Below are positions 11,769 through 29,954 of a stretch of DNA of 64,000 nucleotides, piece after piece (the stretch's first letter is position 1; each line of letters starts with the position of its first letter). The stretch covers positions 145,992 to 209,991 of the forward strand of contig VGOW01000001.1 of NCBI GenBank assembly GCA_016875735.1, read 5' to 3'. The DNA comes from Chloroflexota bacterium. Its GTDB lineage: Bacteria; Chloroflexota; Anaerolineae; Anaerolineales; VGOW01. The notes under the pieces are model-generated. The model was not told where the DNA came from, did no database searches, and saw only the letters and a list, made by a program, of their open reading frames with translations. The position numbers were made by a program, and so were the translations under genes.

Positions 11769-11779
11769 GGCTGTCCTGC

Positions 11780-12472: not shown

Positions 12473-12501
12473 AGGACTCCTCTGAGTCTTAAGTCGTCGC
12501 G

Positions 12502-12644: not shown

Positions 12645-14063
12645 CTAATGCCGCTCGAGCAGATATACAGTCATATTCAAGTTTGGGTTCGCCGGATCGC
12701 ACAAGGCCCCCGTTTGGAACTGCGGCTTCAAGTCGGGCTGGCGGGTGAACTCCGGACACCAGCCCGGGTACGTGATCACATACGTCGGCTTCCCTTCACG
12801 AATAAAATCCCACAGCCGTGAGTCATCGCCCATCAACGGAATCATTTCCGGCGAAACGAGTCCGGCCAAATCCATCAGCCGCACATCGGCAAAATAACCC
12901 AATGCCCCAATGTCGTGCGCCGCCACCAATGTATCCGACCCTGCGTGTGATGCGATCCACTTCGCCACCGCCACCATTTCATTGTTGATCACGCGCACAT
13001 CGGACACGAGCGCATTCGCGCCCAACCCCCAAAAGGCCGCCGCCGCCGCGCCCACACTCATCACCCACGCCCGGCTCACTACCCGCCGCCACATCACCGA
13101 GACATTCCACCGCGCCCACTTCGCCAGCCCCGCTCCGCCGATGGCGATCAACATCGGGATGACCGGAATGAGATAACGACCGTGCTGATAGGTCACCGGC
13201 AAACGCAGTGCATACGCGGCGAGGAACGCGCCCACCCATGCCAACTGCGGCCAGCGGCCTCGCGCGCCCAACGCCACGCCCGGCGCAAGCAACGCCAGCG
13301 AGCCGATGAGCGGCGCAGAAAAAATTTGCCACACTCGTTGCCACAGCGGCAGTTCCCTCAGAATGGCATACTCGGCTTGCTTCGCAAAAAAGGTGTTCGG
13401 CCAAACTTGCCCGCTCAGCGCAACATTGAAAATGAAATACGGGATCAGAATGAATGCCGCTCCACCCGCCAACCCTCCCAACCGTTTCAACCGCAGGGTT
13501 CCGTCAGCGGCCGCAGCCCAAACCGCCCACGCGCAAAACGGCAGCAGAGTCAACCCATCGGGCCGCGCCCACACCGCGAGCCCGATCAGCACGCCGCACA
13601 AAAACTCCCCTCTCCGTTTGGGAGAGGGGCCGGGGGTGAGGGCCCACGCCCCCATCGCCAGCGCGCAAAACAGAATCGTCTCCATGCCCGATGCCGCCGC
13701 CCACACCAAATGCCATTCCACTGCCGCCAACGCCCCCGCCCACCATTGCCCCGACACTCGATACATGAGCCACGCCGTCGCGCCGAGCAACAACGCATTC
13801 AGCGCCATCGCCCACAGCTCGTAATCGATTCTCAGCGTGTATCCGATCGCCAGCATCGCCGTCCACAACGGAGAGGTGGAGCCGGCCGAGGGCTGGCCGA
13901 GAATGAACGCCCACTGCCCGTGCCAGCCCAGATTGCGCGCGTAGGTTTGATGGATCCACGCATCGTCGAGCGGGAAGCCGGACTCGCCCGCCAACCGAAG
14001 CGCAACGGCATACCCCGCCGCCGATAACGCGCCGAGCGCGATCGGACTCCATTCGCGTTTCAT
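12645..14063 (-). CDS. GT-C-like polytopic membrane glycosyltransferase
   Basis: A 472-residue protein with many hydrophobic segments. ATG at 14063 overlaps the upstream stop by 4 bases. The first loop has FPLDDAWIHQTYARNL with an acidic pair (Asp33-Asp34), the position of the catalytic acid in GT-C enzymes that use polyprenyl-phosphate sugars. The sequence TSPLW follows the second motif. The C-terminal soluble part has DIGALGYF and GLVSPE, also present in the divergent gene at 28.4 kb. Residues 142-153 (LTPGPSPKRRGE) are encoded by a hairpin repeat that looks inserted. It is the last gene of the operon; donor and acceptor are unknown. Confidence 0.75.
   Translation of the reverse strand: MKREWSPIALGALSAAGYAVALRLAGESGFPLDDAWIHQTYARNLGWHGQWAFILGQPSAGSTSPLWTAMLAIGYTLRIDYELWAMALNALLLGATAWLMYRVSGQWWAGALAAVEWHLVWAAASGMETILFCALAMGAWALTPGPSPKRRGEFLCGVLIGLAVWARPDGLTLLPFCAWAVWAAAADGTLRLKRLGGLAGGAAFILIPYFIFNVALSGQVWPNTFFAKQAEYAILRELPLWQRVWQIFSAPLIGSLALLAPGVALGARGRWPQLAWVGAFLAAYALRLPVTYQHGRYLIPVIPMLIAIGGAGLAKWARWNVSVMWRRVVSRAWVMSVGAAAAAFWGLGANALVSDVRVINNEMVAVAKWIASHAGSDTLVAAHDIGALGYFADVRLMDLAGLVSPEMIPLMGDDSRLWDFIREGKPTYVITYPGWCPEFTRQPDLKPQFQTGALCDPANPNLNMTVYLLERH
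13605..13641. repeat. Hairpin repeat translated as LTPGPSPKRRGE
   Basis: CCCCTCTCC (13607-13615) pairs with GGAGAGGGG (13621-13629), followed by CCGGGGGTGAGG. The same word order (C-rich arm, G-rich arm, CCGGGGGTG tail) recurs at 63288-63334 and, in degraded form, at 35162-35202. Here it lies in frame inside the membrane-protein gene. Confidence 0.85.
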
Positions 14064-15604
14064 CGCGCGACCTCGAACAACTTCCACTCGCCCCAACGAT
14101 TTACCAATTGCAGTCGCTCGCCGCGCTCGCTTGCATACAATGCGCCCAGCCCGGCCGGGATATTGTGATCGAGCAAAACATAGCGCGCATTGAATCGGTC
14201 GGCGGCGAGGAGCAGAATGGATACATCGCCGTTAACGAGCGGGATGCCGGGGTGGCCGGTCGCCACCCAGAACCCGGGCGGGTTGTTGCTCATCACGACG
14301 GCGTCGCCGGGAATGGCCGCCCCGATTTCACGGAAGGATGCATCACCGCCGTTCCATTCTTTCAACCGAATCGTGATCATTGCCAGAGTCAGTATCGCCG
14401 CCATCGCAATAGTCAGGATCGAAAAATTAAGTTTGGCCTTTTCGGGCTGCCAATGTTTGAGGCGAGCGGCGGCCCAATCAATCGCGGCGTCGAGGCCAGC
14501 AAAGCAAGCGGCGAAATAGAAGGGCATGAGGGCGGCGCTGGAATGGAACAGTCCGCCGCGCGCGCCGGGGAGACTGAAAGCGAGAGTCATGGCGATGTAA
14601 AGCATGGCCGCATACAGAAGCGCCGGGCGGAAGTATGTGTGCCGACGCAATTGCCATAGGCCGAGCGCAATGAACGGCGTGAGGAAAACAAGCCCCTGCA
14701 CGCCGATGATGGTTTGAAGGTTGATGAGCAGGGACTGCCATTTGCCATCGAGTATCGCCGCCCATCCCGCGGCGAAGTATCGTTGCGGAGTGAGATTGGG
14801 CGGATAGTTGAAGAGATCGTTGTAATCGAGGAGCCACAGCGCGCTCGCGCCGCCGCGGCCCAACGGCGAGCCGACAGCGAGCATGTTGCGGATGAGCCAA
14901 GGGAGGGTGGCGAGGAGATAGCCGACAATGAACAATGACGAATGAACAATGAACAATGAGCCAATGAACAATGAGGGTCGGCGGGCGAATGGTTGCTTAC
15001 CACTCACCACGCACGAACCGCCGACCGCCAACAGCAGAATCCCATCGGCGCGGGTGAGGTGCGCCAACCCGGCGCCCACTCCGGCGGCGAAGGCCCATCT
15101 CCAATCTCTGCTCTCTGCGGTGTGTGAAATAGCGAGGAGGGTCGCGCCGCCGATGAGTCCGTAAAGGGCAAACGAATCGGTTGTGCCCCAATAGGCTGGA
15201 TAGAAGCCGCTGAAGATGGTGAGCAAGCCTGCGCCGAACGCATGGCGGTGGAGGCCGGTGGCGCGCAGTGAACAGTGATACGTGATCAGCGGGAGGAGGC
15301 TGGCGAGAAGGAGAAGGGGAAATCGCGCCGCCGCGAAGGATTGCCCAAAAGCCGCCATCGAGAGCGCGGCGACGATGGACGTGAGCGGCATCCAATAGAG
15401 GTGGCTCGGCTGTGGCAGCGATTGCGGATCGCCGAGATAATTCCACAGATACGGCTCGGTGAAGCCTTGCCCCTGCGCCAACCGCAGTGCGCCGCCGAAA
15501 TAATAGGCGTCGTCCACGTATCCGGGCGCGCGGATGAACGAGGCCGCGCCGAAGTTGAACAGCAGGGCGAGGGCGAAGAGGAAGAGAAGATCGCGGCGAG
15601 GCAT
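14060..15604 (-). CDS. GT-C-like polytopic membrane glycosyltransferase
   Basis: A 514-residue integral membrane protein. After the first span comes PGYVDDAYYFGGALRLAQG with the acidic pair Asp31-Asp32, the GT-C signature position, followed by about ten further hydrophobic segments and a C-terminal extracytoplasmic domain of about 100 residues (VATGHPGIPLVNGD). A loop of about 19 residues (around SLFIGSLFIVHSSLFIVG) is encoded by tandem ATGAACAATGA-type repeats and may replace or extend a membrane segment. It ends with a 4-base overlap with the next gene and begins 3 bases after the previous one, so it is inside a tightly packed operon. Confidence 0.75.
   Translation of the reverse strand: MPRRDLLFLFALALLFNFGAASFIRAPGYVDDAYYFGGALRLAQGQGFTEPYLWNYLGDPQSLPQPSHLYWMPLTSIVAALSMAAFGQSFAAARFPLLLLASLLPLITYHCSLRATGLHRHAFGAGLLTIFSGFYPAYWGTTDSFALYGLIGGATLLAISHTAESRDWRWAFAAGVGAGLAHLTRADGILLLAVGGSCVVSGKQPFARRPSLFIGSLFIVHSSLFIVGYLLATLPWLIRNMLAVGSPLGRGGASALWLLDYNDLFNYPPNLTPQRYFAAGWAAILDGKWQSLLINLQTIIGVQGLVFLTPFIALGLWQLRRHTYFRPALLYAAMLYIAMTLAFSLPGARGGLFHSSAALMPFYFAACFAGLDAAIDWAAARLKHWQPEKAKLNFSILTIAMAAILTLAMITIRLKEWNGGDASFREIGAAIPGDAVVMSNNPPGFWVATGHPGIPLVNGDVSILLLAADRFNARYVLLDHNIPAGLGALYASERGERLQLVNRWGEWKLFEVAR
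14924..14975. repeat. ATGAACAATGA tandem repeat inside a coding region
   Basis: The word AATGAACAATGA is iterated with small variations (five AACAATGA-like units) in the middle of the GT-C gene at 14060-15604. The same word forms a dyad at 58950-59019. The reading frame stays open through it. Confidence 0.85.
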
Positions 15605-15607
15605 GAA

Positions 15608-17158
15608 TCAATGACTGCCGAGACTCACGAACTCATGCACGGCCAAATCGTCGAAGTGCGTTATCGCCGCCAACAAAAAGTGATCGGCGAGCCAGGCGAG
15701 ATGAGGGTGCGTGTCCGGCGCATATTCTTCGATGGCCCTATCGAAGACGATAAACCACACGCGCCCTGCCCCGCCCACTGCCGTCTCGACATCGCTCACT
15801 GCAAACAAGCCCAACACCTCCTGCGTGGGCAAGGCCAGTGTGTCGCTTCCCGAACCGGGAGGGTCGGCGAGGAACGATTGCGGCAGACCGCGATCATAAT
15901 AGTGCATCGGGAAAAACGTGAGTTTGTTGCTGTGAAGGATCACATCGCCCGGCTCGGCATTTTGCCGAAGGAATGCGGCCGCCGCTGGAAAGTCCGGGCG
16001 CGGGAATTGCGCGAAAGTGTAGTGCGCCCATAGCCCGGCCACCGATGTGACTCCGAGCAACGCGGCCAATAGCCATCGGACTGGAGCGGGCATTGCCCCC
16101 CTCCAACTCCCCCCATTCGCGTCGCTCATGGGGGGAGAGAAAAGCCACCCCAACACAATCGAATACATCAACGAGGCGGGCAACAATGCGCGTTGAATGT
16201 ACACCGGCTGATAGAGCGAGGCGAGAAACAACAGTGTCGGCGTCCCGGCGGCCAGCGCCGTGAGCCACGCCGCCCGCCGCGACTCGGCGCCCTGGCGAGT
16301 CTTGAAAAGTTGAAAGAGCAGCATGAACGGCAGCGCCATCGCAGTGAACAACGCGAGCGTCAGCCACATTCGCGCCGCCAACAATTCCTCGCCCGCGTGA
16401 TACACCATCGCGCTTTGCAACAGCGTCACAAAATCGGGGCGCGTCACCCAATAGGCCTGCCGCAGTTTTGCGAACTGCCCCGGCACGTTGAGAAACCACG
16501 GCAGCCACAGCGCAAACGCCGCCGCCCCCGCCGCCGCCACTTTTGCAAACAGCTTCGGGCGAGGGAGCGTGCTCAACCCAAAGGCCAGCAAAAAAAACAC
16601 GGCGAGGTTGTGCATATACATAGCCGCCGATGAGAACACAGCAACGACGAGCCAATAGCGGATGGCCGATAGCGGATGGCGGATCGAACGCGCGCGGAGA
16701 TAAAACAGAACCGTAAGAGAACAAAACAGCGCCAACCCGGCATACATGCGCGCCTCTTGCGCGTAATGAACTTGGAACGGAGAGAATGCCGCGATCACCA
16801 TCCCCGCTATCGCCGCCCGTTTGCCGAACAACCGCCGACCGATCCCGTAGGCCGCCGCCACCGCCGCCGCGCCCGCGAACACCGAAAGCATCCGCGCCGC
16901 GAACGGCGACTGCCCCGCCGCTCGCATCCAGCCGTCGAGCGCAGTGTAATAGGCAATGGGGTGCACATCCGCCGATGCGCCCGCCACCGGAGTCAAAGTC
17001 CCGGCCAACATCGCCCGAAATCCTTTCTCGGCGAACAGCGCCGCAAACGCTTCGTCGTACCACAGCGGGCGCGCATTGAGGCCAATCAGCCGAAGGATAA
17101 AGGCAAACAGAAGCACAATGATCGGGGAGCGGAGGCTGATTGCGCCGTCATGCTTCAT
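15608..17158 (-). CDS. GT39/PMT_2-family membrane glycosyltransferase
   Basis: A 516-residue protein of the PMT_2/ArnT-like group. The first periplasmic loop carries PLWYDEAFAALFAEKG with Asp35-Glu36; the second motif is DVHPIAYY. SPFQVHYAQEARMYA is a hallmark of this family in bacteria. Multiple membrane spans follow, ending in an outer-face domain of about 130 residues. Family members move a sugar from a polyprenyl-phosphate donor to lipid, protein or glycan acceptors outside the membrane. Part of one loop (SIRHPLSAIRYWL) is encoded by a 12-bp tandem repeat. It lies 3 bases before the next gene of the operon. Confidence 0.82.
   Translation of the reverse strand: MKHDGAISLRSPIIVLLFAFILRLIGLNARPLWYDEAFAALFAEKGFRAMLAGTLTPVAGASADVHPIAYYTALDGWMRAAGQSPFAARMLSVFAGAAAVAAAYGIGRRLFGKRAAIAGMVIAAFSPFQVHYAQEARMYAGLALFCSLTVLFYLRARSIRHPLSAIRYWLVVAVFSSAAMYMHNLAVFFLLAFGLSTLPRPKLFAKVAAAGAAAFALWLPWFLNVPGQFAKLRQAYWVTRPDFVTLLQSAMVYHAGEELLAARMWLTLALFTAMALPFMLLFQLFKTRQGAESRRAAWLTALAAGTPTLLFLASLYQPVYIQRALLPASLMYSIVLGWLFSPPMSDANGGSWRGAMPAPVRWLLAALLGVTSVAGLWAHYTFAQFPRPDFPAAAAFLRQNAEPGDVILHSNKLTFFPMHYYDRGLPQSFLADPPGSGSDTLALPTQEVLGLFAVSDVETAVGGAGRVWFIVFDRAIEEYAPDTHPHLAWLADHFLLAAITHFDDLAVHEFVSLGSH
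16655..16686. repeat. 12-bp tandem repeat inside a coding region
   Basis: ATAGCGGATGGC occurs at 16655-16666 and again at 16669-16680, followed by GGATCG. On the coding strand it gives the peptide SIRHPLSAIRY. A related word set lies at 28419-28481 on the other strand (SPLAIRY, LFAIRYSP). Confidence 0.75.
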
Positions 17159-17201
17159 CGTTCATTTCTCATCGCTCATCGTTTGTCGTTGTGGCAACGC
17201 T

Positions 17202-18836
17202 CTACGATCCATCGGCCACTTCGAAAACCGTTACGGCTTCATTGGCGAACACGGCTTTGAGAAAAGTCGGCGGCGCGAAATCGCCCATCGCTCGCTCGGC
17301 AGGCCCGTAAAAGACAAACCGACAGCCGCATTCAACGAGCAATGCCTTTCCCTCATCCTCTGTCAGCGCCCCGCTGAAAAACTTTTCGACCGCCGCCGTC
17401 TTCGCCTCGTAATAAGCCGTTTCTATCGGGTGCCCAAGAAACACACGATGCCCGATGCGCGCCGGGATGAGACTGCCGGTTCGTTCCGAGACAAACACGG
17501 TATCCTGCCAATCGGAATGCTCGCCCAGCCAATCGACCGCCTCTATCACTTCTCTTCGATCAAAAAGTTTGGGCGAGTGAGTGGCAGCCAACAGCGCTCC
17601 ACCCAATGTGAGATACAACGACGACTGCAACGAGAAGGTGATGATCAATACAACGACCAAGCCTCGCATCCGGCGATAGGGGTAGCCGACTCTCGCCAAC
17701 CATCGTTTGAGTCCACCCCACCGCCGCAGGGCGGGCAAGAGTCCGTTTCCCAAACCGATAGCGGCCAGCACGGCCAATGGCCCCATCACCGCTTCGGTGA
17801 AGCGGCGTTGAAACTGAGTCGGCAAATAAATCAGAATCATCACCCCGATCACCCACGCGATCAGCACTCTTACTTCGCCCGTTTTGTGTCGCGCCACATG
17901 CCACGCGCCCCAAACCGCCAATGCGCCCGGCAAGCCCAGTCCGAGCAGATAATAGATTGGTGAGGGTGAGGTGATAGCCTCTGCATTTTGTTGTGAGAAG
18001 CTTTGCCAGACGGGATGGTTGAACACTCCCATCGAGTAAAGCAATAGGGGCATTTGAGCCGCCGCTAGTAAACTCAACGAGAAAATTTCTCGCGGCGCAA
18101 TGCGGCGCAAGCCCAGCCACTTCCAGGCCGCATCACCAGCCAGCGCCACATCTACAACAAGCGGCGCAAACGGCTGAATGGCTTGAACAGCCAACGCCGA
18201 CGCAACCCCGACGGCCAGCCAACGTCGTTGGCCGGTATGCCAGTGCTCAAGAAAAGCCAACACGGTCGTCCACATCAAGGCAAACACGGCCGAGAAGTGC
18301 GGAAAGACCATCAAACTGAAAAAGCCGTATAGGTCGATCAACCAGAAATCAACAGCCGCCATGTCCGGGCGAGGTTGCCAGCCGAAGACGAGCATGAGCC
18401 AGCCAAGTCCTGAGCCGAGAGCGAAAAGCAGAAATGCAACGCGGCGCAGGGCAACCGATCCAAGAAACCGGGCGGCAAAGAAATACATCGTCAGCAACAT
18501 CCACAGCCCGAACAGCCAGCGGGCGAGTTCATAGAGCACTCGCGGCGGCAGAGGCAAAACACGCCCAATCTGGCCAAGCGCGATATAGAATGTTTTGACA
18601 TAGGCCGGTGGAATTGCCTCCGACGAATGCAGAAGAGGATACTGCCACGAGCCGCGCAGTCCGGTTTGGATGCCGGCTAGATGCACGTTGTAGTCGAGAA
18701 AATCATAAACAGCGCCGAGGAAGATTTGATCCGAAGTCTGGGCGGCGTAACCGGCGGCAATCGGAACCGACGACAACAATAACACCATCAGGCTGGCAGC
18801 TACCACCCAGCGCAGCTCGGCGCGAGTGATAGTCAT
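17202..18836 (-). CDS. Polytopic membrane protein, paralogue of the next gene upstream
   Basis: A 544-residue protein; ATG at 18836 is preferred over the in-frame TTG at 18845. It has about twelve hydrophobic segments. It shares a clear architecture with the protein at 18926-20578: a GSW-centred loop, SEAIPPAYVKTFYIALG, GSGLGWLM, DFWLIDLYGFFS, FPHFS, QFQRRF, and a C-terminal CRFVFYGPAE motif. This family is not one I can name. The topology and the operon of GT-C proteins suggest a membrane glycosyltransferase. The acidic residue in the first loop (LDYNVHL) might serve as catalytic base. Confidence 0.7.
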   Translation of the reverse strand: MTITRAELRWVVAASLMVLLLSSVPIAAGYAAQTSDQIFLGAVYDFLDYNVHLAGIQTGLRGSWQYPLLHSSEAIPPAYVKTFYIALGQIGRVLPLPPRVLYELARWLFGLWMLLTMYFFAARFLGSVALRRVAFLLFALGSGLGWLMLVFGWQPRPDMAAVDFWLIDLYGFFSLMVFPHFSAVFALMWTTVLAFLEHWHTGQRRWLAVGVASALAVQAIQPFAPLVVDVALAGDAAWKWLGLRRIAPREIFSLSLLAAAQMPLLLYSMGVFNHPVWQSFSQQNAEAITSPSPIYYLLGLGLPGALAVWGAWHVARHKTGEVRVLIAWVIGVMILIYLPTQFQRRFTEAVMGPLAVLAAIGLGNGLLPALRRWGGLKRWLARVGYPYRRMRGLVVVLIITFSLQSSLYLTLGGALLAATHSPKLFDRREVIEAVDWLGEHSDWQDTVFVSERTGSLIPARIGHRVFLGHPIETAYYEAKTAAVEKFFSGALTEDEGKALLVECGCRFVFYGPAERAMGDFAPPTFLKAVFANEAVTVFEVADGS

Positions 18837-18925
18837 TTCAGACAACGCCTTTCATTTTTAACCGGGCATTTCCGCTGGAACTACAAGCAATGCACGCTGG
18901 CCGCCGAAGACCGTGGAGGGCGGAG

Positions 18926-20578
18926 TCATGGAATGAATTCATAAATCACCACTCCGTGCGCGGAATATCGTCGTCGAAAATAATGAGCCGAATCCGGATC
19001 AAATGGGCCTAGCTGCTGTTCGGCTGGCCCATAAAAAAGAAATCGGCACTTCAATGTCTGCAACAATCGCTCGCGTTCTGTGTCGTCAATCTCTCGGCTG
19101 AAGATGCGGTCAATAGTGTCTTGCTTCTGATAAAAGTCTAGCGTCAGATTCCAATGCCCAATACATGTGCGCGCGCCGCTTCGAGCCGGAATGTAGTTCC
19201 CGGTAGGGTATGCCGCCAGAGTCAGATCGCTTGCCGCGGCTTGCCTCAGCCAATCGGCGGCCATCGCAACGCCGCGCGGGATAAATATAGCAGGCGACCG
19301 GAGCCAAGCATTCATTGAATAGGCCCCCAGCAACAAGAGATTTGACAGCGTGCAAAATGCAATCACCAGATTCAGGCTGAGCATGCGGAGTCGGCGAGGG
19401 GAATACCAACGCGCAACGGGGCTGGCGGCCGATAGCCGCCGTATCCATGGAAGCACAACGGTGACTAATCCGATGGCGGCCAAAGCGCTCAACGGCGTCT
19501 GCGCGCCCATTATGAATCGCCTTTGGAATTGAAGAGGCGCATACAGCATGATCATCGCCGTGAATAACCAAACCAACATCAGAGCTTCACGCCCGACCCT
19601 TCGCTTGTACACCCTTAACCCGCCAATAGCCCCAAGTATGCTCACTGCCCCGAAGCCGGTCACGTAATAGCCAAAAGGCGGAGACATTGTGATGTCCTGC
19701 CTTGCCAGCGCTTCAAAAACCGGATTAGTAAGCGCCAGATAGAAGTAATAGAGCAGTGGCAACCCTGCGCCCATCATCGCCGCCGCAAATACCCCCAACA
19801 CGGAACTCGCCCCTGAGCGATGCAACCAGCTCAGCGTTATGGCCGACAAGATCGCCGTCATGATTATGACCGGCGCTATCTTCGGGTGGGCAATTGACAG
19901 CCCTAAACCGGAGACAAAGGCAAACGGCCCTAGTTTCCATCCCGGCATAAACGCCGCTCGAGTCATCGAAGCAAGCAGCGTCAAGGCCAATGCCCATGCT
20001 ACGGAAAAGTGCGGGACAAGCAAAATCGAGAAAAACACGTAAGCATCCATCAGCCAAAAATCTATGCTCGAAATGCCGTCCGGGCCGACAGGCCTGATAA
20101 CTTGCATCAACCATCCGAAGCCTGATCCCATGCATAGAAGCAAAAAGGCGACCTTGCGAATCGCAACCGATGCGATATGAACCCGAATATAGTCGTATGC
20201 TGCTAGAAGAAGACCCAGCCCACCCAGCCCCCGCACTGCATGGTAAGCAATCAAGGGCGTAACACCAAGCCACCGGCAGATGTTCCCCAGCAGAATGTAG
20301 AATTCGTATAGGAACATCGGCGGATGAGCCTCGGCGGTAAATGGCAAACTCATCAACCATGATCCATGCCGGCCCTGTTGCATAACGGCCAAATACACAT
20401 TAGCGTCAATAGAGTTGAATAGGATTCCTGAGAAGAATAACTCCGGAGTCTGGCGCAGCCACCCAACAACGTAGGGCACGAACGTCGCGGCTACAACGAT
20501 CGCCGACACGCCCAAGACCCAGATGATTTCCGAGCGGGCGCTACTCTGTGGGTTCGATTTGATAGAGCCGATACGCAT
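18926..20578 (-). CDS. Polytopic membrane protein, paralogue of the next gene downstream
   Basis: A 550-residue protein sharing the block order of its neighbour: IDANVYLAVMQQGRHGSW, AEAHPPMFLYEFYILLG, GSGFGWLM, DFWLMDAYVFFS, PLQFQRRF and a C-terminal CRFLFYGPAE. These conserved blocks identify a tandem duplication that has diverged strongly. It has about twelve hydrophobic segments and a soluble C-terminus. ATG at 20578 lies inside the end of the upstream gene (38-base overlap) with GGAG about 10 bases upstream. Function is unknown; GT-C-type glycosyl transfer is the best guess from context. Confidence 0.7.
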   Translation of the reverse strand: MRIGSIKSNPQSSARSEIIWVLGVSAIVVAATFVPYVVGWLRQTPELFFSGILFNSIDANVYLAVMQQGRHGSWLMSLPFTAEAHPPMFLYEFYILLGNICRWLGVTPLIAYHAVRGLGGLGLLLAAYDYIRVHIASVAIRKVAFLLLCMGSGFGWLMQVIRPVGPDGISSIDFWLMDAYVFFSILLVPHFSVAWALALTLLASMTRAAFMPGWKLGPFAFVSGLGLSIAHPKIAPVIIMTAILSAITLSWLHRSGASSVLGVFAAAMMGAGLPLLYYFYLALTNPVFEALARQDITMSPPFGYYVTGFGAVSILGAIGGLRVYKRRVGREALMLVWLFTAMIMLYAPLQFQRRFIMGAQTPLSALAAIGLVTVVLPWIRRLSAASPVARWYSPRRLRMLSLNLVIAFCTLSNLLLLGAYSMNAWLRSPAIFIPRGVAMAADWLRQAAASDLTLAAYPTGNYIPARSGARTCIGHWNLTLDFYQKQDTIDRIFSREIDDTERERLLQTLKCRFLFYGPAEQQLGPFDPDSAHYFRRRYSAHGVVIYEFIP

Positions 20579-22562
20579 CCCCGAAATTCTCCACGAGAAA
20601 AAGCGAGGATTTCAGTTTAGCCAACTCCTGCCAATCCTCTGGTTCAAACGGCTCGGTTCCAGAAGACTGAAATAGCTCAACCGCGAGATCGTAGATGAGG
20701 ACATGGGTGATGCCGGACCTTTGCCAGTCGATGAGGATGCTGGCGGACGTGCCGCCAAGCCGCCGAGCATGCCACCACGCATCCAGAATCCCGTCCGGAA
20801 TGCACCGGCCAGGATCGCAATAGTAGGAACGTGGCTCAAACATGAAAATGACTTGGCTGTCCACCGGCAGGCTGTTGACTGCGCGCATCGCCGCGTAATG
20901 CCAACCTAGTCGCTGGTATAGAAACTCTTCACGGGTTTGCAGGCCGAGCAGCACGCGGCCCGGGCCATTGGTTATGAAATCGCTGATCGATTGATAGCCG
21001 GTTAACGCCAGCCCCATTGCCAGCAAGACGCCGATCACGCGATGAACGGACAATATCTTTGTCGCCAATACCCGCAAGCCGTCAAAGGCGATAGCGCTCG
21101 CAAGAGCGAGCGGCGGCAGTATTGGAAAGAGCAATCGTGGCTGGACAGCCAATCGGGATTGGGCGGAGCCGAACAACCATACAGCATAGATTGCCGATGC
21201 CATGATCAATACGTCAACCAACCAACGCCGAATCAAGGGCGCACGATCAGCCGCCCCGATCGGCAGCATCGGCAGTAGCAGGAAGAACATGAAGCCGATA
21301 GTAGCATGCCACTCTCCTCCTTCAACGCCCAATATGCTCATGTACCAAGGAGCGGCAAGCAGCAATCCATGTTGGTTTGTGTAGAGCCAGCCGGAGCGCG
21401 GCCTGCTAAACCAAGCCGTGCGCCAACTATCCCACCCTACCCCGTTCGCAAAGAAAGGGTATGTTGGGTTGCCCGTCAGAACGAAGTTCTTCAGAAGGTA
21501 TGGAGAGGCTGTCAAGCCAGCCACAATGCCAAAGGCCATGAGCGCCTTGATCCGCTCGGCCCAGTTTGATTTCGCGCTAAAACTAATGACGAGCGCGAGC
21601 GCACAAATAACCACACCACCGCTGATCTTTGTTCCGAAAGCCAGACCAGCCATTAGTCCCGCAACAATCAGCCAGCGCGGGTTCTGCATATTGTCTTCGC
21701 GCCAGATGACCAATGCCCCGAAGCCAGCGGCTGTAAAAAACATTAGAGCGATATCGATATAAGGCTCGCCTGCCAAGAGCGGCACCGACGACGCACTGAG
21801 CAAGATGGCAACCGCCAGCCAACCTAGACGCGTCGTGCTGGAGCGTTGCCCCCATTGCCAAACTAAGCCGCATAGCAACACGCAAAACCACCAGTGCAAT
21901 GGGGCGGCGGCCAGCTCGCCGCCGATCAACAACGCCCAAGTGAAGAGAAGCTCAACACTGATTGAGTATCCTAAGGGGGGAATGGAAGCAGGCACGCTCA
22001 AACGCCCGGTCGCCACGTCCAGCTTTGGGCCAGTAAGATGATACAGCAACGCATCCCAGCTGATGACTGGCCCAAGCGCGTTTAGCAACGCAATGGCCAT
22101 AGTAAGCCCAACAAACGCAGCCAGCCCCCACTCCACTGTAGTGGGGGGCCTCACCTCCTGCCATACGCCCGCAAAATCTCTGAGCCAATCGCGAATGAAC
22201 CGGCGCAACACAAAAGCGGCCAACAACAAGAGCAGCCAAGCCGCGATCGAATTCAGCGTTCTAAGAAACCCGCAAACCAACACCACATAGCTAAGCAATC
22301 CCAATCCCAGTCCGGATTCATATGCTGTGCGCTCAAGGAGCGATTTCCGGGCGAATGGCAATTTCAGCCAACCTAGAACAGCGCGGCCAACACCTGCTCC
22401 GACTGCAATCAACATACTCGTGCATAGAAGAGCCCAAGTGGCGGCGCCCATTGCCATCACTTGTGATAGCACGATTGGCTTATGATTCGCATAGTAAGCA
22501 GAGGCAACAACCAATGCCCAAATAAAGACAAACCCCGAAAGGGCTCCTTTGAGGCGGCTCAT
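20541..22562 (-). CDS. Large polytopic GT-C-like membrane protein
   Basis: A 673-residue integral membrane protein. ATG at 22562 overlaps the upstream stop by 4 bases, so the longer frame is rejected. After four or five N-terminal spans comes ISWDALLYHLTGPKLDVATGRL, resembling the DALxYHLxxPK motif of a bacterial GT-C subgroup. EPYIDIALMFFTAAG follows, then many spans and a C-terminal domain with two cysteines (YCDPGRC). Its substrate is unknown. Base composition is somewhat more A+T-rich than in the flanking operon genes at 12-18 kb. Confidence 0.72.
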   Translation of the reverse strand: MSRLKGALSGFVFIWALVVASAYYANHKPIVLSQVMAMGAATWALLCTSMLIAVGAGVGRAVLGWLKLPFARKSLLERTAYESGLGLGLLSYVVLVCGFLRTLNSIAAWLLLLLAAFVLRRFIRDWLRDFAGVWQEVRPPTTVEWGLAAFVGLTMAIALLNALGPVISWDALLYHLTGPKLDVATGRLSVPASIPPLGYSISVELLFTWALLIGGELAAAPLHWWFCVLLCGLVWQWGQRSSTTRLGWLAVAILLSASSVPLLAGEPYIDIALMFFTAAGFGALVIWREDNMQNPRWLIVAGLMAGLAFGTKISGGVVICALALVISFSAKSNWAERIKALMAFGIVAGLTASPYLLKNFVLTGNPTYPFFANGVGWDSWRTAWFSRPRSGWLYTNQHGLLLAAPWYMSILGVEGGEWHATIGFMFFLLLPMLPIGAADRAPLIRRWLVDVLIMASAIYAVWLFGSAQSRLAVQPRLLFPILPPLALASAIAFDGLRVLATKILSVHRVIGVLLAMGLALTGYQSISDFITNGPGRVLLGLQTREEFLYQRLGWHYAAMRAVNSLPVDSQVIFMFEPRSYYCDPGRCIPDGILDAWWHARRLGGTSASILIDWQRSGITHVLIYDLAVELFQSSGTEPFEPEDWQELAKLKSSLFLVENFGDAYRLYQIEPTE

Positions 22563-23767
22563 GCGAGCGACCTCGGGCGGCAGGCAATTAATCCAGCCAG
22601 CAACCCCAAGGGCAAGGGAAGATACATGGGCCATTGTTCAATACGCCCCTTAACCGTCACAGCAAACAAGACCCACAGCCCTGCAAACATGACTGCCTCA
22701 ACAGCCGCTATCCAAATGTACGCCCTGCCTCCCCAGCGATTCGCGGCGCGCGCAAATAGATATACGAGAGTCGGCGTCATCATCACGTAGTTTGTCGTGG
22801 CAGTGCGGAGCGCAACCAGGTTGGTGATCACCAGCGTCAGCATCACCACCCAATCGAATCGCTTTCCTTCACCAAGCCGCGCTTGCCACCACTCCCATGC
22901 CAACCATCCTGCCAACAACAGGTTGAGTAACCACTCTACCGGTTGGCCAAGAAACGGAAACACGATACGAGTCAGCGTATTGATCGGTGAGCCAATATCA
23001 GTGTAACTACCATAGCTTTCGATCTGCCGGAGCATCATCGCCACCCAATCGGGCGCAAAGATGAACGACAACCCGCATAACACGATCATGCTTCCCAACA
23101 ATGAGATGGCAAGCCGCCACCGCCGCGCCGACAGACTCCACAATCCGATCAGCGGCACGATGATGAACGTCATTTGCGGTTTGGCAGTCGCTAACGCCAG
23201 AGTGATGCCTGCCAACACATCGCGACGCTCATGAATCGCCCAAAGGCCGCCAGCAATCAATACCGCTGACACGGCCGCAAACTGCCAAAGAATAATCGTC
23301 CGCGCCCCATGATAGAACATCAATGTCCACAATAGCGTAGCGGCCGCCAGCCATGCTGGCGGCGACCAGCGGTTGAATCGGAAGCTAAAAAGGGCCGTCG
23401 CTGCCAAAGCTGCTTCCGTGCAAACAGTGCCAACTGCGCGCGCCCAATTCCAATCAAGCCATGCGAGGGGGATGTAAAAAAAGATCGCGTAGAAAGGATA
23501 GGCGAAGTGGGCCTTATCTTCACCCGAGTCATTCGCCAATCGGCCATATATGGCTATCTGCCCGCGCTCACCAACCGCCTGACTGTATGGACTCAAACCT
23601 TCAAATAGCCACGCTCGAGCGCCATAGTAGCGCGGGATTGAATCATTCCCGCCAGGAACACGGATCGTGAAGTAATAGTAGGTGACCACCGTGTTCCCGA
23701 TCAGCGCTATTCCCAACAAGCTCAATAACATCCACTGCCGTCTGTCGAATCGTTGCTTTGCGCTCAT
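22559..23767 (-). CDS. GT87-like (DUF2029) membrane mannosyltransferase-type protein
   Basis: A 402-residue protein. ATG at 23767 follows the upstream stop by one base and is preferred over the longer frame. The first outer loop has GGNDSIPRYYGARAWLFEGLSPYS, matching the D-x-Y-x-G-SPY pattern of GT87 enzymes such as the alpha-mannosyltransferases of actinobacteria. FAYPFY and ATAKPQ are further family blocks. About ten hydrophobic segments follow and, unlike its neighbours, there is no large soluble C-terminus. It probably uses polyprenyl-phosphate mannose or another hexose. It overlaps the next gene by 4 bases. Confidence 0.75.
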   Translation of the reverse strand: MSAKQRFDRRQWMLLSLLGIALIGNTVVTYYYFTIRVPGGNDSIPRYYGARAWLFEGLSPYSQAVGERGQIAIYGRLANDSGEDKAHFAYPFYAIFFYIPLAWLDWNWARAVGTVCTEAALAATALFSFRFNRWSPPAWLAAATLLWTLMFYHGARTIILWQFAAVSAVLIAGGLWAIHERRDVLAGITLALATAKPQMTFIIVPLIGLWSLSARRWRLAISLLGSMIVLCGLSFIFAPDWVAMMLRQIESYGSYTDIGSPINTLTRIVFPFLGQPVEWLLNLLLAGWLAWEWWQARLGEGKRFDWVVMLTLVITNLVALRTATTNYVMMTPTLVYLFARAANRWGGRAYIWIAAVEAVMFAGLWVLFAVTVKGRIEQWPMYLPLPLGLLAGLIACRPRSLA

Positions 23768-23768
23768 A

Positions 23769-25260
23769 TCACTTGACCCGATACACCACAATCGGCCCAT
23801 ACGTGCCATCAAGCGTCGGCAGCTGCGTTATCGGCTCCAGAGTCCGCGCCCCGAAGAACGGGCTAAAACTTCCAATGGCATAGGCTTCATGATCGATGAT
23901 CAGAGTCCCGCCGCGCTCCACAAAATAATCGAGCAATCGTTTTTCTTGCCGCGCTTCGATTGCATCCCAATCCACCAGCCCGTCGAGGCTCAACACTCGC
24001 CGCCCGCTGTAATAGGCATAGATGCCGGCGTTGAACGCGCCCACCGTTTCATCGCCGCTCACGTTTTGCGCCAGCCACTCCGCGCCCGCGCGCATGTCGC
24101 TCTGCCATTTGTATTCCGGCTGGCCGATCATTTTGATCGACTGTCCGATCACGATCAACCCCAACGCAACCGCAACCCACACACCGAACCGCTTTCCAAT
24201 GGGTGCCGCCAACCCGGCGGCGAACGTTGGCCCGGCCACGAGCGCCGCGCCCCACGCCAGCGGCGCAAAATACCATCCACGCGGATACCAGCGCACGAAC
24301 GTATGCACGAACACGATCAGCAGCGCTCTGGCCAATGGCAGCCACAAGCGAGCCGCTCGCGCGCTCGTCAATCGGACTCGCCCAACGCGCACAAACAGCG
24401 CTCCGACAATGAGGGCAATCAATGCCACACCCGGATAAATGATCAAATAACGAAAACTGTAATTGATGATTGGGAACAGCACACTGCCCCACACGTCGCC
24501 GCCCGATTGAATGCGATACGCCACCAGAGACGGGATCGCCGCCGCCGATGACTGCACCACCGTGCCCACTCGTTGCCAGCTCCACACGAACCATGGAGCG
24601 ACGACTGCAACGGCGGCGACCATTGCGATGGCAAATGCAGTCCATCTCTTTTTTAGAATGAGCCACAGCGATAACACGCCGATGATCAGCCCAACATCGC
24701 TTCGCGCCAACACCGCGAGTCCCGCCAAGGCGCCGAACAGCGCCGCGCGGCCGTTCGATTCAGGCGACGCCGTCAGCCGCGCCCAACCGGCCACGCACGC
24801 GGACAGCATCATCATCGTCAACCCTGTTTCCAATCCATTGACCGATGCGCGGGTTGAAAAGATACAAGGCCATCACAGCCAACGACGCCCTGCGGGCCAA
24901 TGATCGATCCTCCCAACCACCGAACCACCCAACCACCGAACCACCCAACCATCCAGCAACCACATCGCAGACCGCCCCCAATGTCAGAACGAGATGCGCC
25001 GCCAGATCGCCGTTTGGGGCGAATCGAAAGATCGGCGCGATGAGCAATGCCCACAGCGGATGGAATCCATTCGTCGGCTTCACCCCGTCGAACGTCGCGC
25101 CCAATCCGGCGGCAATGTTGCGGGCAATCACAAAGTAAATGAAGGCATCGTCGGGCAGTGTGTGGGGAATGAGAGTCGTAACGGGCAGCCACGCGATGAT
25201 AAGCCGCACGGCCAGACCTGCCGCTATGATCACTCCCCACTTGCGCCGCTCATCAATCAT
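23769..25260 (-). pseudogene. GT-C-like membrane glycosyltransferase with frameshift
   Basis: Two overlapping frames together make one protein of about 500 residues. The N-terminal frame (25260 down) has LPDDAFIYFVIARNIAAG and GFHPLWALL, the same family as the genes at 12.6 and 28.4 kb. It runs out of phase near 24850. The other frame supplies SVNGLETGLTMMML and the whole C-terminal part ending at 23769. At the junction AACCCGCGCATCGG would be restored by one extra GC dinucleotide (or loss of one base), suggesting a 2-base slip in a GCGC run. It may be a true lesion or a sequencing error. The N-terminal half also carries a 16-bp tandem repeat. Confidence 0.75.
24913..24952. repeat. 16-bp tandem repeat inside a coding region
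   Basis: CCAACCACCGAACCAC is repeated exactly at 24913-24928 and 24929-24944 with a partial third unit. On the coding strand it gives a GWLGGSVVGWFGGW-type peptide. Because 16 is not a multiple of 3, any change in copy number would shift the frame of the gene. Confidence 0.9.
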
Positions 25261-26725
25261 CACTCATCATTTTCACAATTACTACTGAAAGCGCATCCCG
25301 ATACCGCACTGCCCAGTCCGGTTTCGCCAACAGCGCGCGGGCAATCGGCGCTTTGGCTTCCACCAGCACAACGCCAATGTTGTATTTCTCCAAAGTCTTT
25401 TCCCAATCCGGCCCGGCTGTGTAGGCGTTGAGATACTCGTTGAGAAAATCGTCGTCGTAGAGATCCGTGCGGCCATCCACGAACACGGGCACATCGGGAT
25501 ACAACGCCCATACGAGGTAGCCGCCGAAGTTGTATGAATTGAACATCGCGCCCGGCGGCGGATGCGTTTTGAGATATTCCGCCGCGCCCATCGGTGCAGT
25601 GAGTGCGATGGCCGACTTGGTCGTGTCGGGGTTCAGCGGCATGGCGATTTTCACCGCCGAGGCGGCGGCCACGAGAATCAAAAGCGCCCAATTCAGAGTC
25701 TGCATCACGGACGTTGGCGATGCGCTGTCGCGCAACTTCATCTGCGGCCAGCGTTCTCCCAACTCGGCAATGACCGAGTCAGCATGGCGCATGAGGACGG
25801 GCGCACACACGACGGCGAAGGCGGCGATATTGCGTCCGGCGAGCAGAGCCAATACGCTGAACACGGCGAAGAGCAAAAAGTCGGTAGTATCGAGTCGCCG
25901 CCGACCGAGACCTGCCGCGCCGAAAGTGATCAGCCACATGACGATGAACGCCTGCGCTTCGCGGGCGTGAAAATTTGGCGACTGCCACTCTTGAATATAG
26001 TTTTGCAATGCGCCGATGGAGACGGTGCGGAACGGATACCACAACATTTGTATTCCGTATGGGTTGACGGCCACCGCCGCCGCGCACGCCAACCCCATCC
26101 CGCCAACCCACAGCATTCCCCGCGACGCATCGCCGGATCGAAAGCCGCCAACGGCAAACGCAAAGGCGTAACCGACAAAAGTGATAGCGAGCAGAACAAA
26201 CCCAATGGCAAATCCGCCATGCAAGTTCACCCACACGATCATGAGCGGCGGCAAAATCCACAGCCGGTTGATTCCGCGATAGCGATAGAGGATGAGAATG
26301 TAGTTGAACACTGCCGTGAGCAACAACGAAACGATATGCGGGCGGGCCGCCCAATACACTCCCGACACGGCGGCGGCCAACACAACAACAAAAGCGCGCA
26401 GATACGATCCGCCCTCGCCGGAAAGATACACAAACAAAAACGCCAGCCAAACGATGATCGCCGTCGCCGCGTTAAGCCCGCCCCAACCGAAGGCGCGATA
26501 GAGGACGGCCATGGGAATCTCGCTGAGCCACGAGTGATTAGCCCACGGCTGGTTGAGGCGCGTGTGCGAGAAGGCGTCGAAGTTGAGCAGGCGTCGGTTG
26601 TCGAGCATCCACGTTCCGGCGCGCAAATGCCAAAAGGTGTCCGAGTCCACCGCCACGCGTGTTGCCATAGCAAAGAGGCCGACGAAGAGAATGGCGGTGG
26701 CGAGGCGGCGAGGGGTGAGAGTCAT
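25253..26725 (-). CDS. Polytopic membrane protein with C-terminal soluble domain
   Basis: A 490-residue protein with an N-terminal span, then VDSDTFWHLRAGTWMLDNRR (an acidic pair in the first loop as in GT-C proteins), NQPWANHSWLSE, VNLHGGFAIG and NPYG blocks. About ten spans precede a C-terminal domain of about 150 residues with VFVDGRTDLYDD. Proteins of this layout occur widely in environmental bacteria without an assigned reaction. A GT-C-type role is inferred from topology and context. It overlaps the upstream reading frame by 4 bases (ATGA). Confidence 0.7.
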   Translation of the reverse strand: MTLTPRRLATAILFVGLFAMATRVAVDSDTFWHLRAGTWMLDNRRLLNFDAFSHTRLNQPWANHSWLSEIPMAVLYRAFGWGGLNAATAIIVWLAFLFVYLSGEGGSYLRAFVVVLAAAVSGVYWAARPHIVSLLLTAVFNYILILYRYRGINRLWILPPLMIVWVNLHGGFAIGFVLLAITFVGYAFAFAVGGFRSGDASRGMLWVGGMGLACAAAVAVNPYGIQMLWYPFRTVSIGALQNYIQEWQSPNFHAREAQAFIVMWLITFGAAGLGRRRLDTTDFLLFAVFSVLALLAGRNIAAFAVVCAPVLMRHADSVIAELGERWPQMKLRDSASPTSVMQTLNWALLILVAAASAVKIAMPLNPDTTKSAIALTAPMGAAEYLKTHPPPGAMFNSYNFGGYLVWALYPDVPVFVDGRTDLYDDDFLNEYLNAYTAGPDWEKTLEKYNIGVVLVEAKAPIARALLAKPDWAVRYRDALSVVIVKMMSDD

Positions 26726-27672
26726 TTCGGCAAGTTGAGTTCGGCGGGGGTCACTTTACGCGAGAGATTATAAAAGATGCGAAAGTCGCCGATGGCTTTT
26801 TCCTCGAAGGCCACCCCAAGCGCGGCGAACTGTGCACGCAACTGTTCATCGAGGGTGGGATGTTTGGTGGTGATGTACGCCACACGATCACTGGCGGCCA
26901 CTGCCTCTCGGTATGGCGCGTAGCGGTCATAGCGAGTGGTGTATTTGAAGTCGAGATGATAGGGCAACGCTGCGGAGTATATCAACTTTTCGCCTGAAAG
27001 GAATGCCATGGGGAACGTGACCCAATAGTTGCTGTAGCCGCGCGTTTCGCCGCGCGCGATGAGGAAGTCGATCACGGCCGGCATGTCGCGCATGTCCACT
27101 TGCGCCACGGCGTCGAATTGAGTGGTGATGCCCGGCGGCGCGGTGAGCGCCGATTCGATGTTGCCCCACAGGTTGAAGGCCAGCACACCGCAAAGCGCGG
27201 CAATGGCGGCGCGCGGGTAATTGCGCCGGATTCGATTCAAAAGGTCTGCGGTGAACAGGGCCAGCGGCGGCGCCAACGGGAGAAAATATCGCCCTGAGGG
27301 ATCGTTGCCAAACGGGGTGGCGACGAAGGCCACGATGAGCGTGAGGCACAGTCCGGTCAACATGATTCTCGGCCACTCACGCAAGCCCGTTTTGATCATT
27401 CAAATGACTGCGCCGATGAAGAGGGACAGGGCGAGGGGCGCGAGCGGCAATGCCAGCCAACGCACGGCCCACGGCGGGCGCGCGCCGACGACGGCGGACA
27501 GGCCGAGCACGATGAGGCCGAAGAGGCGAAAGGCGATGGCGGCGAGCGGGCTTTGCTGTGAGGCTCCGGCGATGGCCGCGCCGCCGAGTTCGCTCACGGT
27601 GGCCGCGCCGAAGAGGGTGGCCTGCCACCACGGAAAACTGCCGATGACAAAACCAGACAGGGCCAAAATATG

Positions 27673-27752
27673 ATTCACCACAGAGAACACGGAGCGCACA
27701 GGGTTTTGACAAGCAGATTCCTCTCTGTGTTCTCTGTGAACTCTGTGGTGAA
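27673..27752. repeat. CACAGAGAACACGGAG dyad repeat
   Basis: TTCACCACAGAGAACACGG (27673-27691) and a right arm at 27723-27752 (CTCTGTGTTCTCTGTGAA, then CTCTGTGGTGAA) form an imperfect dyad of about 80 bases inside the decayed GT39-like gene. It is translated as HHRVHREHRE. Its presence in a gene with two other lesions suggests relaxed selection, although the frame is open across it. Confidence 0.85.
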
Positions 27753-28313
27753 AAACAAGGGCAATGCTTACCGGCAAAAGATACACGCCGATCAGTCCGA
27801 ATGTCCAAAACCCGAAGCCGGCCAACACGCCGAAGAGAAGCCATTCGAGGTGACGCCGACTCTTCTCGCGCAACCTCATCGCCCACAAGAGCAAAATGTT
27901 GCCGATGAGCAGTGTTTCGCCGTAGCCGCCGAGCGTCGCGGTGGTGTATAGAGTCACGAGCACGGTCGGGTATAGCCATGAGCAGAGCCGCCGCGTTCGC
28001 CGCCCAACGATCACGAAAAACTTTGAGCGCCAGCAAATACGTTGTGGCCACCGTGCCGAGATAGAGAATGAATTGGGTGATGCGAACGGCCAGCACGCTC
28101 TGCCCCAAAAGAACGAACGCGCCCGCGATGAGCCACGCATCGGCGCTGCCGAGATAGGCCTGCCCGTAAAAGAAGGCCGGGCGCTCACCCTGCAAAATGT
28201 GCCGGGCCATCAGCGCCACCACCGCCTCGTCGGCGTTGAAGGGAAAGGCATCGAGCGCCAGCAACGCCGCTTTGAGCGCAACCGCCGCGAGCAACGCGCA
28301 CACAATCCCTGCG

Positions 28314-28342
28314 TTGTCACGCGGAAATGATGACCGTATAAT
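28314..28342 (+). promoter_or_regulatory. Near-consensus sigma-70 promoter
   Basis: TTGTCA (28314-28319), exactly 17 bases, then TATAAT (28337-28342). The predicted start is near 28349, about 46 bases upstream of the ATG at 28395. It drives the rightward GT-C gene and lies across the 5' end of the leftward decayed gene, whose start may therefore lie further downstream than the first ATG. Confidence 0.8.
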
Positions 28343-28394
28343 CATTTGTGTTGATGCAAAATCTTGCATCATCAGCTACCCAATCCCTGACCCA

Positions 28395-29954
28395 ATGCCC
28401 CCTCAACGCCTCAACCCATCCGGCCATTCGCCACTTGCTATCCGCTACGCAAAGCGGCTGTTCGCTATTCGCTACTCGCCCATTCTCCTCTTCGCCCTCG
28501 CCGTGTTCCTTCGCCTCCTGCCCGGCGAGCGAATAGTGGACGATGCCTATATTACCTTTCGTTATGCGCGCAACATTGTCAATGGAGTCGGCTTCGTGTA
28601 CAACCCAGGCGAACATGTGATGGGCACCACCACCCCGCTCTACACCTTACTCATGGCCGCGCTCTCAATCCTTGGGCGAACCGGCAACTTCCCCGCCCTC
28701 TCGATCTGGGTGAACGCAATCGCCGATGGATTCACTTGCGCCCTTCTCGCCCCACTGGGCCAAACGATCAGTGGCCGCCGCCGGGTGGGAATCGCCGACG
28801 GGGTGCTGTATGCCATCGCGCCGTTCGGCGTCACCTTTGCCATCGGCGGAATGGAAACATCGGTCTTCGTATTGCTCATCACTCTCACTGCGTTGCTCTA
28901 TCTGCGCGATCACCCGGCGTGGGGTTTCACCTCGGCCCTCGCTCTCCTCACCCGCCCCGACGCCATCATCTTCATCGGCCCCATCGGCCTCGACTTCGCC
29001 GTGCGCATCTTCCGCAAACAATCCTCGCTCCGCTTTCACCATTTCGCATCCGTCATTCCCCTGCTCCTGTGGACGCTCTTCGCCGCCCTTTACTTCGGCT
29101 CGCCCATCCCGCACTCCATCGCCGCCAAAACCGCCGCCTATCGCCTCCAGCCCGCCGAAGGTTTCGTTCGCCTGCTTCAACATTACGCCACGCCGTTCTT
29201 CGAGAATCTCACCTTTCCGAACACGCCGATCCTCTTTGCATTCCTCATCGCCTATCTTTCGTTGTCGATCATCGGCATCATCAACGCCCTTCGCCGCGAC
29301 TCGCGCTCTCTCCCCATCACTCTCTACCCCTTTCTCTATTTTGCCGTCTTCGCCGTCGCCAACCCGCTCATCTTTCGCTGGTATCTCACGCCACCACTGC
29401 CCTTCTACTTCATCGTCATCCTCACCGGCCTCTCCGCCATACTTCAACTTCAAATCTCAAATCTCAAATCTCAAATTGCATTCATCATCCTTTGGACATT
29501 TTTCATTGCAATGAGTCTGCGAGCATGGACTCTCACACCCGATCACGGCCCGAACCGGCCCGCCCCGCAAATGGCCTGGTTCCAACTCGAGCAACTCTAC
29601 ACGCAGATCGGCAAAGACCTCGCCCCTGAAGTGACGCCGACAACCGTCATCGCCGCTGGCGACATTGGCGCACTCGGTTACTTCTCCGGCGCGCGTATCC
29701 TCGACACGCTCGGCCTCGTCTCCCCCGAATCGACGGCCTACTATCCCCTCCCGCCCGATCAACTCGTCATCACCTACGCCATCTCCGCCGATCTCATCGC
29801 CGAGGCGCGGCCCGATCACGTCGTCTTCCTCGAAGTGTATGGCCGCCGCACCCTCCTCGCCGACTCGCGGTTTCTGGCCGACTACACCCTGCGGCAAAAG
29901 ATTCCCACCGACATTTACGGAAGCGATGGGATGTTGGTCTATCAACACAAATGA
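28395..29954 (+). CDS. GT-C-like membrane glycosyltransferase (AftB/GT89-like layout)
   Basis: A 519-residue protein read from its own promoter, opposite to the operon. ATG at 28395 is chosen from the promoter position; the frame is open further upstream. The first loop has RIVDDAYITFRYARNIVNG (Asp49-Asp50) and GVGFVYNPGEHVMGTTTPLY. This is the pattern of GT-C arabinofuranosyl/glycosyl transferases that use polyprenyl-phosphate donors. The C-terminal domain shares DIGALGYF and LGLVSPE with the protein at 12645-14063. Residues 11-30 (SPLAIRY, LFAIRYSP) and a mid-protein QISNLKSQI segment are encoded by short repeats. Confidence 0.78.
   Translation: MPPQRLNPSGHSPLAIRYAKRLFAIRYSPILLFALAVFLRLLPGERIVDDAYITFRYARNIVNGVGFVYNPGEHVMGTTTPLYTLLMAALSILGRTGNFPALSIWVNAIADGFTCALLAPLGQTISGRRRVGIADGVLYAIAPFGVTFAIGGMETSVFVLLITLTALLYLRDHPAWGFTSALALLTRPDAIIFIGPIGLDFAVRIFRKQSSLRFHHFASVIPLLLWTLFAALYFGSPIPHSIAAKTAAYRLQPAEGFVRLLQHYATPFFENLTFPNTPILFAFLIAYLSLSIIGIINALRRDSRSLPITLYPFLYFAVFAVANPLIFRWYLTPPLPFYFIVILTGLSAILQLQISNLKSQIAFIILWTFFIAMSLRAWTLTPDHGPNRPAPQMAWFQLEQLYTQIGKDLAPEVTPTTVIAAGDIGALGYFSGARILDTLGLVSPESTAYYPLPPDQLVITYAISADLIAEARPDHVVFLEVYGRRTLLADSRFLADYTLRQKIPTDIYGSDGMLVYQHK
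28419..28481. repeat. GCTATTCGCTAC-type repeat at a protein N-terminus
   Basis: CATTCGCCACTTGCTATCCG, GCTACGCAAAGCGGC and GTTCGCTATTCGCTACTCGC are variants of one word with an internal GCAAAGCGG dyad. It encodes the first 30 residues of the rightward GT-C protein and resembles the 12-bp repeat at 16655. Confidence 0.6.
29446..29478. repeat. CAAATCTCAAATCTC tandem repeat in a coding region
   Basis: Four units of CAAATCT or a close variant lie in frame in the GT-C gene and are translated as QISNLKSQI. The same words form dyads at 46049-46124 and 55747-55788. Confidence 0.8.

Follow-up and report, generated by a model that had tools for sequence, protein, structure and literature searches.

The window analysed here, a stretch of 64,000 nucleotides from contig VGOW01000001.1 of a Chloroflexota bacterium (GCA_016875735.1), carries on its minus strand, read from 28372 to 12645, ten gene loci that all encode polytopic proteins (g10 to g1), together with a divergent plus-strand gene, g11, that ends at 29954. 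Judged by sequence family or predicted fold, the eleven proteins resemble GT-C enzymes and fall into at least five families, one more than the minimum of four made out in the original prediction. The array is co-directional with the genes of a two-component pair, a Flp pilin and a Tad pilus, which makes the pilin a candidate acceptor.

With all genes except g11 on the minus strand, the products of g1 (12645..14096), g8 (23769..25263) and g11 (28197..29954, likely start 28395) appear to be AftB-like, those of g2 (14060..15604), g3 (15608..17158), the long g6 (20541..22634) and g10 (26722..28372) are probably of the PMT_2 type, and g7 (22559..23812) is a predicted GT87 member. The PMT_2 match of g2 scored 31 bits against a cut-off of 26.1 and that of g3 40.7 bits, g3 also giving a weak Agl23-family NCBIfam match far under the cut-off; g6 scored 23.3 bits as a protein, below the cut-off, and 28.4 bits in the genome search, above it. 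At E ≤ 0.001, PMT_2 was recognized in 10/18 rows of the g2 family (the window's g2 among them), in 7/14 rows of the g6 family and in 11/18 of the g10 orthologues found elsewhere, the g10 pieces of the window falling below the Pfam cut-off. Proteins g2, g6 and g10 are distant relatives of one another. GT87 was matched by g7 with 54.6 bits for a cut-off of 25 and, at the same E-value threshold, by 13/13 rows of its family. The proposal that g11 is related to genes of the other strand was borne out, since it shows a profile match of 99.9% and a pairwise identity of 26% to g1 and is also related to g8. A g11 profile of 15 rows matches AftB (9dlf) with an E-value of 8.6e-11, the match spanning profile positions 40-248 of 526, and comparison with the NCBIfam AftB equivalog gave 22.4 bits for a cut-off of 1050, indicating a distant relative only. 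Profile searches of the PDB returned nothing relevant for g1 (no match), g2, g6, g7 and g10.

Genes g4 (17202..18845) and g5 (18926..20578) are tandem relatives sharing 35% identity over 550 columns, and neither is assigned by Pfam, in agreement with the unnamed family that had been proposed for two genes of the array. A further unnamed family is represented by g9 (25253..26725); profile comparisons detected no relation between g4 and g9 or between g7 and g2. Structure models were computed for g4 and g9 and were confident, both displaying a GT-C fold with a polytopic N-domain and an outer soluble C-domain; a fold of another kind, set beforehand as the result that would contradict the original prediction, did not occur in these two, and the GT-C placement of the other nine proteins rests on sequence. 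In fold, g4 and g9 resemble oligosaccharyltransferases. The g4 profile gave a single weak PDB match (3vu0, E 0.04), identified by the fold search as an AglB C-terminal domain; single-sequence PDB searches with g3 and g4 returned nothing relevant. In the nine genes counted, one or more acidic residues in the first outer loop are at least 90% conserved in g1, g2, g3, g4 (6 rows), g6, g9, g10 and g11, a level that was not reached in g7. Residues D44, D45 and E139 of g1 are present in 54/54 alignment rows, and D194 of g6 in 32/32.

The original prediction had described ten consecutive membrane protein genes. The run of ten polytopic loci stands, but only eight are open in the window genome, g8 being interrupted by one frameshift near 24846 and g10 by a frameshift near 27968 and a TGA codon at 27400-27402. 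Both reading frames of g8 match the orthologue from a genome of the same genus (G002), in which g8 and g10 are each a single open gene of 507 and 542 residues. Since the window genome is a draft of 150 contigs, the interruptions may be sequencing errors. Overlaps between neighboring genes were also described; their sizes vary with the start codon chosen. As for the promoter attributed to g11, a plus-strand site at 28314..28342 (TTGTCA-17-TATAAT), upstream of the likely g11 start at 28395, does agree with the consensus at 11/12 positions, but it is a candidate only, as 11 promoter-like sites were found in the region for 8.5 expected. Short interspersed repeats lie inside the GT-C coding frames, at 24909-24961, about 13600-13640, 27674-27752 and other spots. 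The 53-base repeat at 24909-24961, within g8, is listed at 30 places genome-wide (the g8 copy included), an inverted repeat lies within the g10 coding frame and the repeat in g1 forms a terminator-like hairpin.

We investigated whether the array is conserved among relatives from the order of the host, which we infer to be Anaerolineales. Among 201 genomes of the order searched at E ≤ 1e-40, 132 carry a g9 match and 130 a g1 match. Forty loci around g9 matches within the order, selected from the better-scoring ones rather than at random, were inspected: 28 contained three or more of the array families (with g9 as one of them, at 90 bits or above), and several of the remaining 12 stop at contig ends. 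The usual order is a sigma-70 gene, g11 diverging from g10, then g9, g7, a variable middle (g6, g3, g4, g5 and others), g2, g1, a response regulator and a sensor kinase. The divergent g10/g11 arrangement is found in 14 of these 28 array loci, two of them with a gene in between. Orthologues from different families are mostly 25-60% identical and recur in the same order, with a membership that differs between genomes. In 20 further loci centered on g1, selected by hand within the order, g2 adjoins g1 in 20/20 and g7 is near in 19/20. A wider sample of the class yielded g2 at E ≤ 1e-35 in 100/298 genomes, the order itself included; in 20 loci from outside the order, g1 lies beside g2 in 15, a response regulator or sensor kinase was seen in 6 and pilin or Tad genes in 4. 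For g11, the best 80 of 421 relatives were examined, and around g11 in the cultured Levilinea, Ornatilinea and Leptolinea the fetched flanks showed no further recognizable array family. The search for conserved synteny in Chloroflexota that had been called for thus identifies the array as a recurring locus of the order, present in part of the class; it is neither isolated nor recent. A second recurring cluster, in which g4/g5-like proteins alternate with polytopic proteins of about 700-800 residues, was observed in several families of the order (L046, L048, L049, L051, L052, L054, L055 and L056).

These observations bear on whether the array could be a loose cluster of GT-C paralogues with unrelated jobs, held together by tandem duplication. 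The window genome is rich in GT-C genes: at E ≤ 0.01 it gives 52 matches to PMT_2, several of them clustered and 39 exceeding the Pfam cut-off; g4/g5 and g1/g8/g11 are paralogous, g2, g6 and g10 share their distant kinship, and membership varies. However, a BLASTP match at E ≤ 0.1 links only seven pairs of array genes or gene pieces, the order recurs across families at the identities given above, and the g10/g11 divergence is kept in half of the array loci chosen by g9. We consider such a cluster very improbable. A recent tandem expansion was likewise rejected for most members, from the scarcity of BLASTP pairs and the presence of orthologues across families. The scale of the array, which had been called unusual, is less so in a genome with this many PMT_2 matches; what does set it apart is that it recurs with its gene order and its neighbors preserved. 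A predicted role of this old GT-C locus in outer-face glycosylation is well supported by sequence. The dedicated outer-face glycosylation system of the original prediction would fit the family, fold and synteny results, which bear it out in part.

Downstream of g1 and on the same strand lie a response regulator gene with a LuxR-type domain (11780..12511; Response_reg and GerE), a DegS-type sensor kinase gene (10707..11810; HisKA_3, DegS and HATPase_c) and a complete co-oriented Tad/Flp set: flp (10466..10612), which encodes the 48-residue Flp pilin proposed as acceptor (Flp_Fap at E 6.9e-7 with 29.4 bits, under the Pfam threshold of 32.2), CpaB/RcpC (9151..10287; SAF and RcpC), CpaE/TadZ (7770..9023; Response_reg and a ParA-type NTPase), the CpaF/TadA ATPase (6323..7744; T2SSE, 217 bits), TadB (5226..6284; T2SSF) and TadC (4251..5198; T2SSF). 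A gene with a phosphoribosyltransferase domain also belongs to this co-oriented series, after TadC. The flp gene is followed on the minus strand by a terminator-like hairpin (10398..10425) of 12 pairs with a T-rich tail, terminator-like sites numbering 24 for 27.5 expected.

CpaE was detected at E ≤ 1e-60 in 145 of the 201 genomes, 120 of which also carry g1; g1 alone was found in 10, CpaE alone in 25 and neither in 46, a co-occurrence that is inflated by draft incompleteness and drawn from relatives that are not independent. Distances were measured in 144 CpaE genomes (G146 being left out), 119 of which have both genes and 87 both on one contig. In 85 of these 87, CpaE lies downstream of g1, co-oriented and within 8 kb, with the two-component pair and usually a Flp pilin gene between them. 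In the g1-centered loci a response regulator or sensor kinase gene comes next after g1 in 19/20 (with an antisense match between in L229), and Tad genes were seen in 12/20. We tentatively favor the reading that this conserved Anaerolineales GT-C-like locus, co-oriented with Tad genes, adds sugars sequentially to the Flp pilin outside the membrane.

The neighborhood also informs a broader possibility, namely a general O-glycosylation of many surface proteins in which the pilin would be one of several substrates. Nine of the 15 g2-g1 pairs outside the order have no response regulator or sensor kinase in the stretch fetched, the predicted fold of g4 and g9 resembles that of oligosaccharyltransferases, and passages of a report on a Chloroflexota filament describe densities that are possibly O-glycans (PMC12488501). 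Within the order, however, the two-component genes and CpaE accompany g1 in the 19/20 and 85/87 cases described above, and the correlation with serine presented below concerns the pilin, the one protein compared. We regard general O-glycosylation as unlikely.

The window pilin carries a serine at position 33 of its predicted 39-residue mature form. Pilins were compared where found, in 36 genomes with g1 and in 16 with CpaE in which g1 was undetected; 7 of the 25 CpaE-only genomes gave no pilin in the fetched stretch and 2 were not included. The comparison excluded the truncated pilin of L104 and a second pilin in G024 (L127), and loci with several copies contributed one each. Position 33 is Ser in 35/36 and Thr in 1/36 of the genomes with g1; in the Tad genomes without detected g1 it is Ser in 7/16, Thr in 1/16 and Asn or Gln in 8/16. 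Within family f8 alone, Ser33 is found in 11/12 genomes with g1 versus 0/8 without it, and the Tad block is present in three of the f8 genomes lacking g1 (L103, L109 and L112). In these three Tad genomes, g9 is the sole array family recognized between the sigma-70 gene and the two-component genes. The second pilin of G024 is a different Flp-like protein encoded away from the array locus (L127, position 11213). In a gene tree built from 38 CpaB proteins, supported branches force a minimum of four changes, whether gains or losses, to account for the nine rows with neither g1 nor Ser. One of these nine is G192, whose residue is Thr; no pilin was recovered for five rows that carry the label for g1 and Ser (G014, G026, G051, G078 and G102), which leaves the label of the nine, defined by the absence of g1, unaffected, and the tree is without G068 (no CpaB obtained), G171 and several more of the genomes whose pilins were counted.

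The favored reading draws on gene order, protein families, two predicted folds and co-distribution with the Tad genes and the serine, from which we infer enzyme activities, donors, acceptor, order of steps and regulation as follows. Cytoplasmic GT2 enzymes encoded elsewhere in the genome would load sugars onto polyprenyl phosphate, and the lipid-linked sugars would flip outward. With the pilin still membrane-bound and unassembled, the conserved serine at mature position 33 would receive its first sugar from one GT-C, and the remaining GT-Cs, each using one donor, would lengthen the chain. CpaF, TadB and TadC would then build the coated pilin into pili, with the two-component pair as a possible regulator. 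In its most specific form, which we hold to be rather doubtful, about 8-10 non-redundant GT-Cs, two unnamed families among them, would act as an assembly line building a complex O-glycan on this one invariant serine before assembly, and loss of the line would entail loss of the serine.

The original prediction had observed that no gene for donor synthesis lies inside the block, and a Pfam search of the window array indeed found no donor-synthase domain. In two relatives (L092:10250-10957 and L108) a GT2 family is found inside the array, and in three more on the opposite strand nearby; the L092 member, the only one compared, resembles ArnC and DPM synthase. The single GtrA match of the window genome lies outside the array. 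An arabinofuranose donor was considered, as a UbiA-type protein (G000:C12:22851-23699, L243) scores 218 bits against the cut-off of 207 for DPPR synthase (decaprenyl-phosphate phosphoribosyltransferase), but a search of the window genome for the ALO domain, of the DprE1 type, gave no match and this donor is not supported.

Besides this unsupported donor, several observations weigh against pilin glycosylation. The serine pattern was noticed before it was counted, in relatives that are not independent and drafts that miss genes. Ser33 is present without detected g1 in four genomes that are 95-99% complete (G016, G017, G112 and G113), and pilin positions around 33 are also more variable without g1, so that a general drift of the pilin offers an alternative account of the pattern. 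In the window genome g8 and g10 are broken though its pilin keeps the serine, and 8-10 transferases are many for one pilin of 39 residues. No pilin was recognized in 11/20 g1-centered loci, and a simple open reading frame test of the gap between the sensor kinase and CpaB found no pilin in 6/8 applicable loci (L119, L223, L225, L227, L228 and L234), five of these being g1-centered loci already without a recognized pilin and the sixth L119. No Tad gene was seen in the stretch fetched for 8/20 g1-centered loci, two of which do contain a pilin. Finally, adjacency to Tad genes alone is weak evidence because the opposite flank of the array often retains its sigma-70 gene as well (near g11 in 25/80 g11 loci and 19/33 array loci), and gene order may simply change slowly here.

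These last two points would equally suit an array whose product is a polysaccharide or glycolipid of the cell surface, in the form of a branched envelope glycan comparable to the arabinogalactan made with mycobacterial GT-Cs, with the Tad adjacency reflecting conserved order and a shared surface function only: the sigma-70 adjacency is kept without a pathway link and Tad genes are not always seen. AftB, which g1, g8 and g11 resemble, acts on a wall polysaccharide, and a large glycan suits many distinct GT-Cs. The window itself carries a polysaccharide locus at 30001-47494, with genes for methyltransferases, GT4s, two Wzy_C-TPR ligase-like proteins, WecG/TagA, epimerases, a flippase and an initiating sugar transferase (the Wzy/WecG/flippase/sugar-transferase part at 32090-47494), and the Wzy_C/TPR ligase-like family (cluster 20) recurs within the array or close to it in 4 relatives, a further point against the pilin as acceptor. 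This capsule-type locus was rejected as a conserved part of the system, since in none of the mapped relatives, with their limited flanks, was the whole of it observed next to g11; this, and the pilin serine that tracks g1, speak against a polysaccharide product, which we judge plausible but somewhat doubtful.

If pilin glycosylation is correct, the array would account for how Anaerolineales could decorate their filaments. As a candidate for filament O-glycan machinery, the locus is concrete and conserved in many genomes, and it points to one residue to test; two families of membrane proteins that are widespread but unnamed in Pfam would acquire a predicted fold and a likely role. Judged by title or the start of the abstract, our literature search recognized no paper on this array. 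The Tad cluster, pilin GT-Cs, a suggested glycosylation of Flp and possible O-glycans on a Chloroflexota filament do appear in the portions of the literature consulted. According to parts of PMC4877987, Anaerolineae make up a core population in anaerobic digesters and have Tad pili that are linked to cell aggregation, the Anaerolineales pilA/flp-CpaB-CpaE-CpaF-TadB-TadC cluster being highly transcribed; this is the same gene set as the Tad locus of the window, but a term search of the main text of that paper gave neither "glycosyltransferase" nor "glycosylation". Glycosylation of Flp had already been suggested in passages of prior work, and the possible O-glycans of the filament mentioned above, a bacterial archaellum, are credited in the sections consulted to an existing bacterial machinery that is given no name there (PMC12488501).

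Compared with the oligosaccharyltransferases STT3, AglB and PglB, g4 and g9 are about 9-15% identical and lack the WWD or WWDYG motif, WWDYG being the C-domain mark of those enzymes. The mycobacterial AftB, AftA, AftD and Emb proteins share the GT-C fold, and in mycobacteria several GT-Cs serve one pathway; the g11 profile matches AftB itself (9dlf), but only over the first half, and the window genome lacks the ALO match. A further parallel, drawn from its description, is TfpW, which according to parts of PMC11841053 is a GT-C encoded with the group IV pilins of Pseudomonas and arabinosylates the pilin. In both cases GT-C genes stand together with a pilin gene, with a single GT-C and a type IV pilin in Pseudomonas and 8-10 predicted GT-Cs beside a Tad/Flp pilin here.

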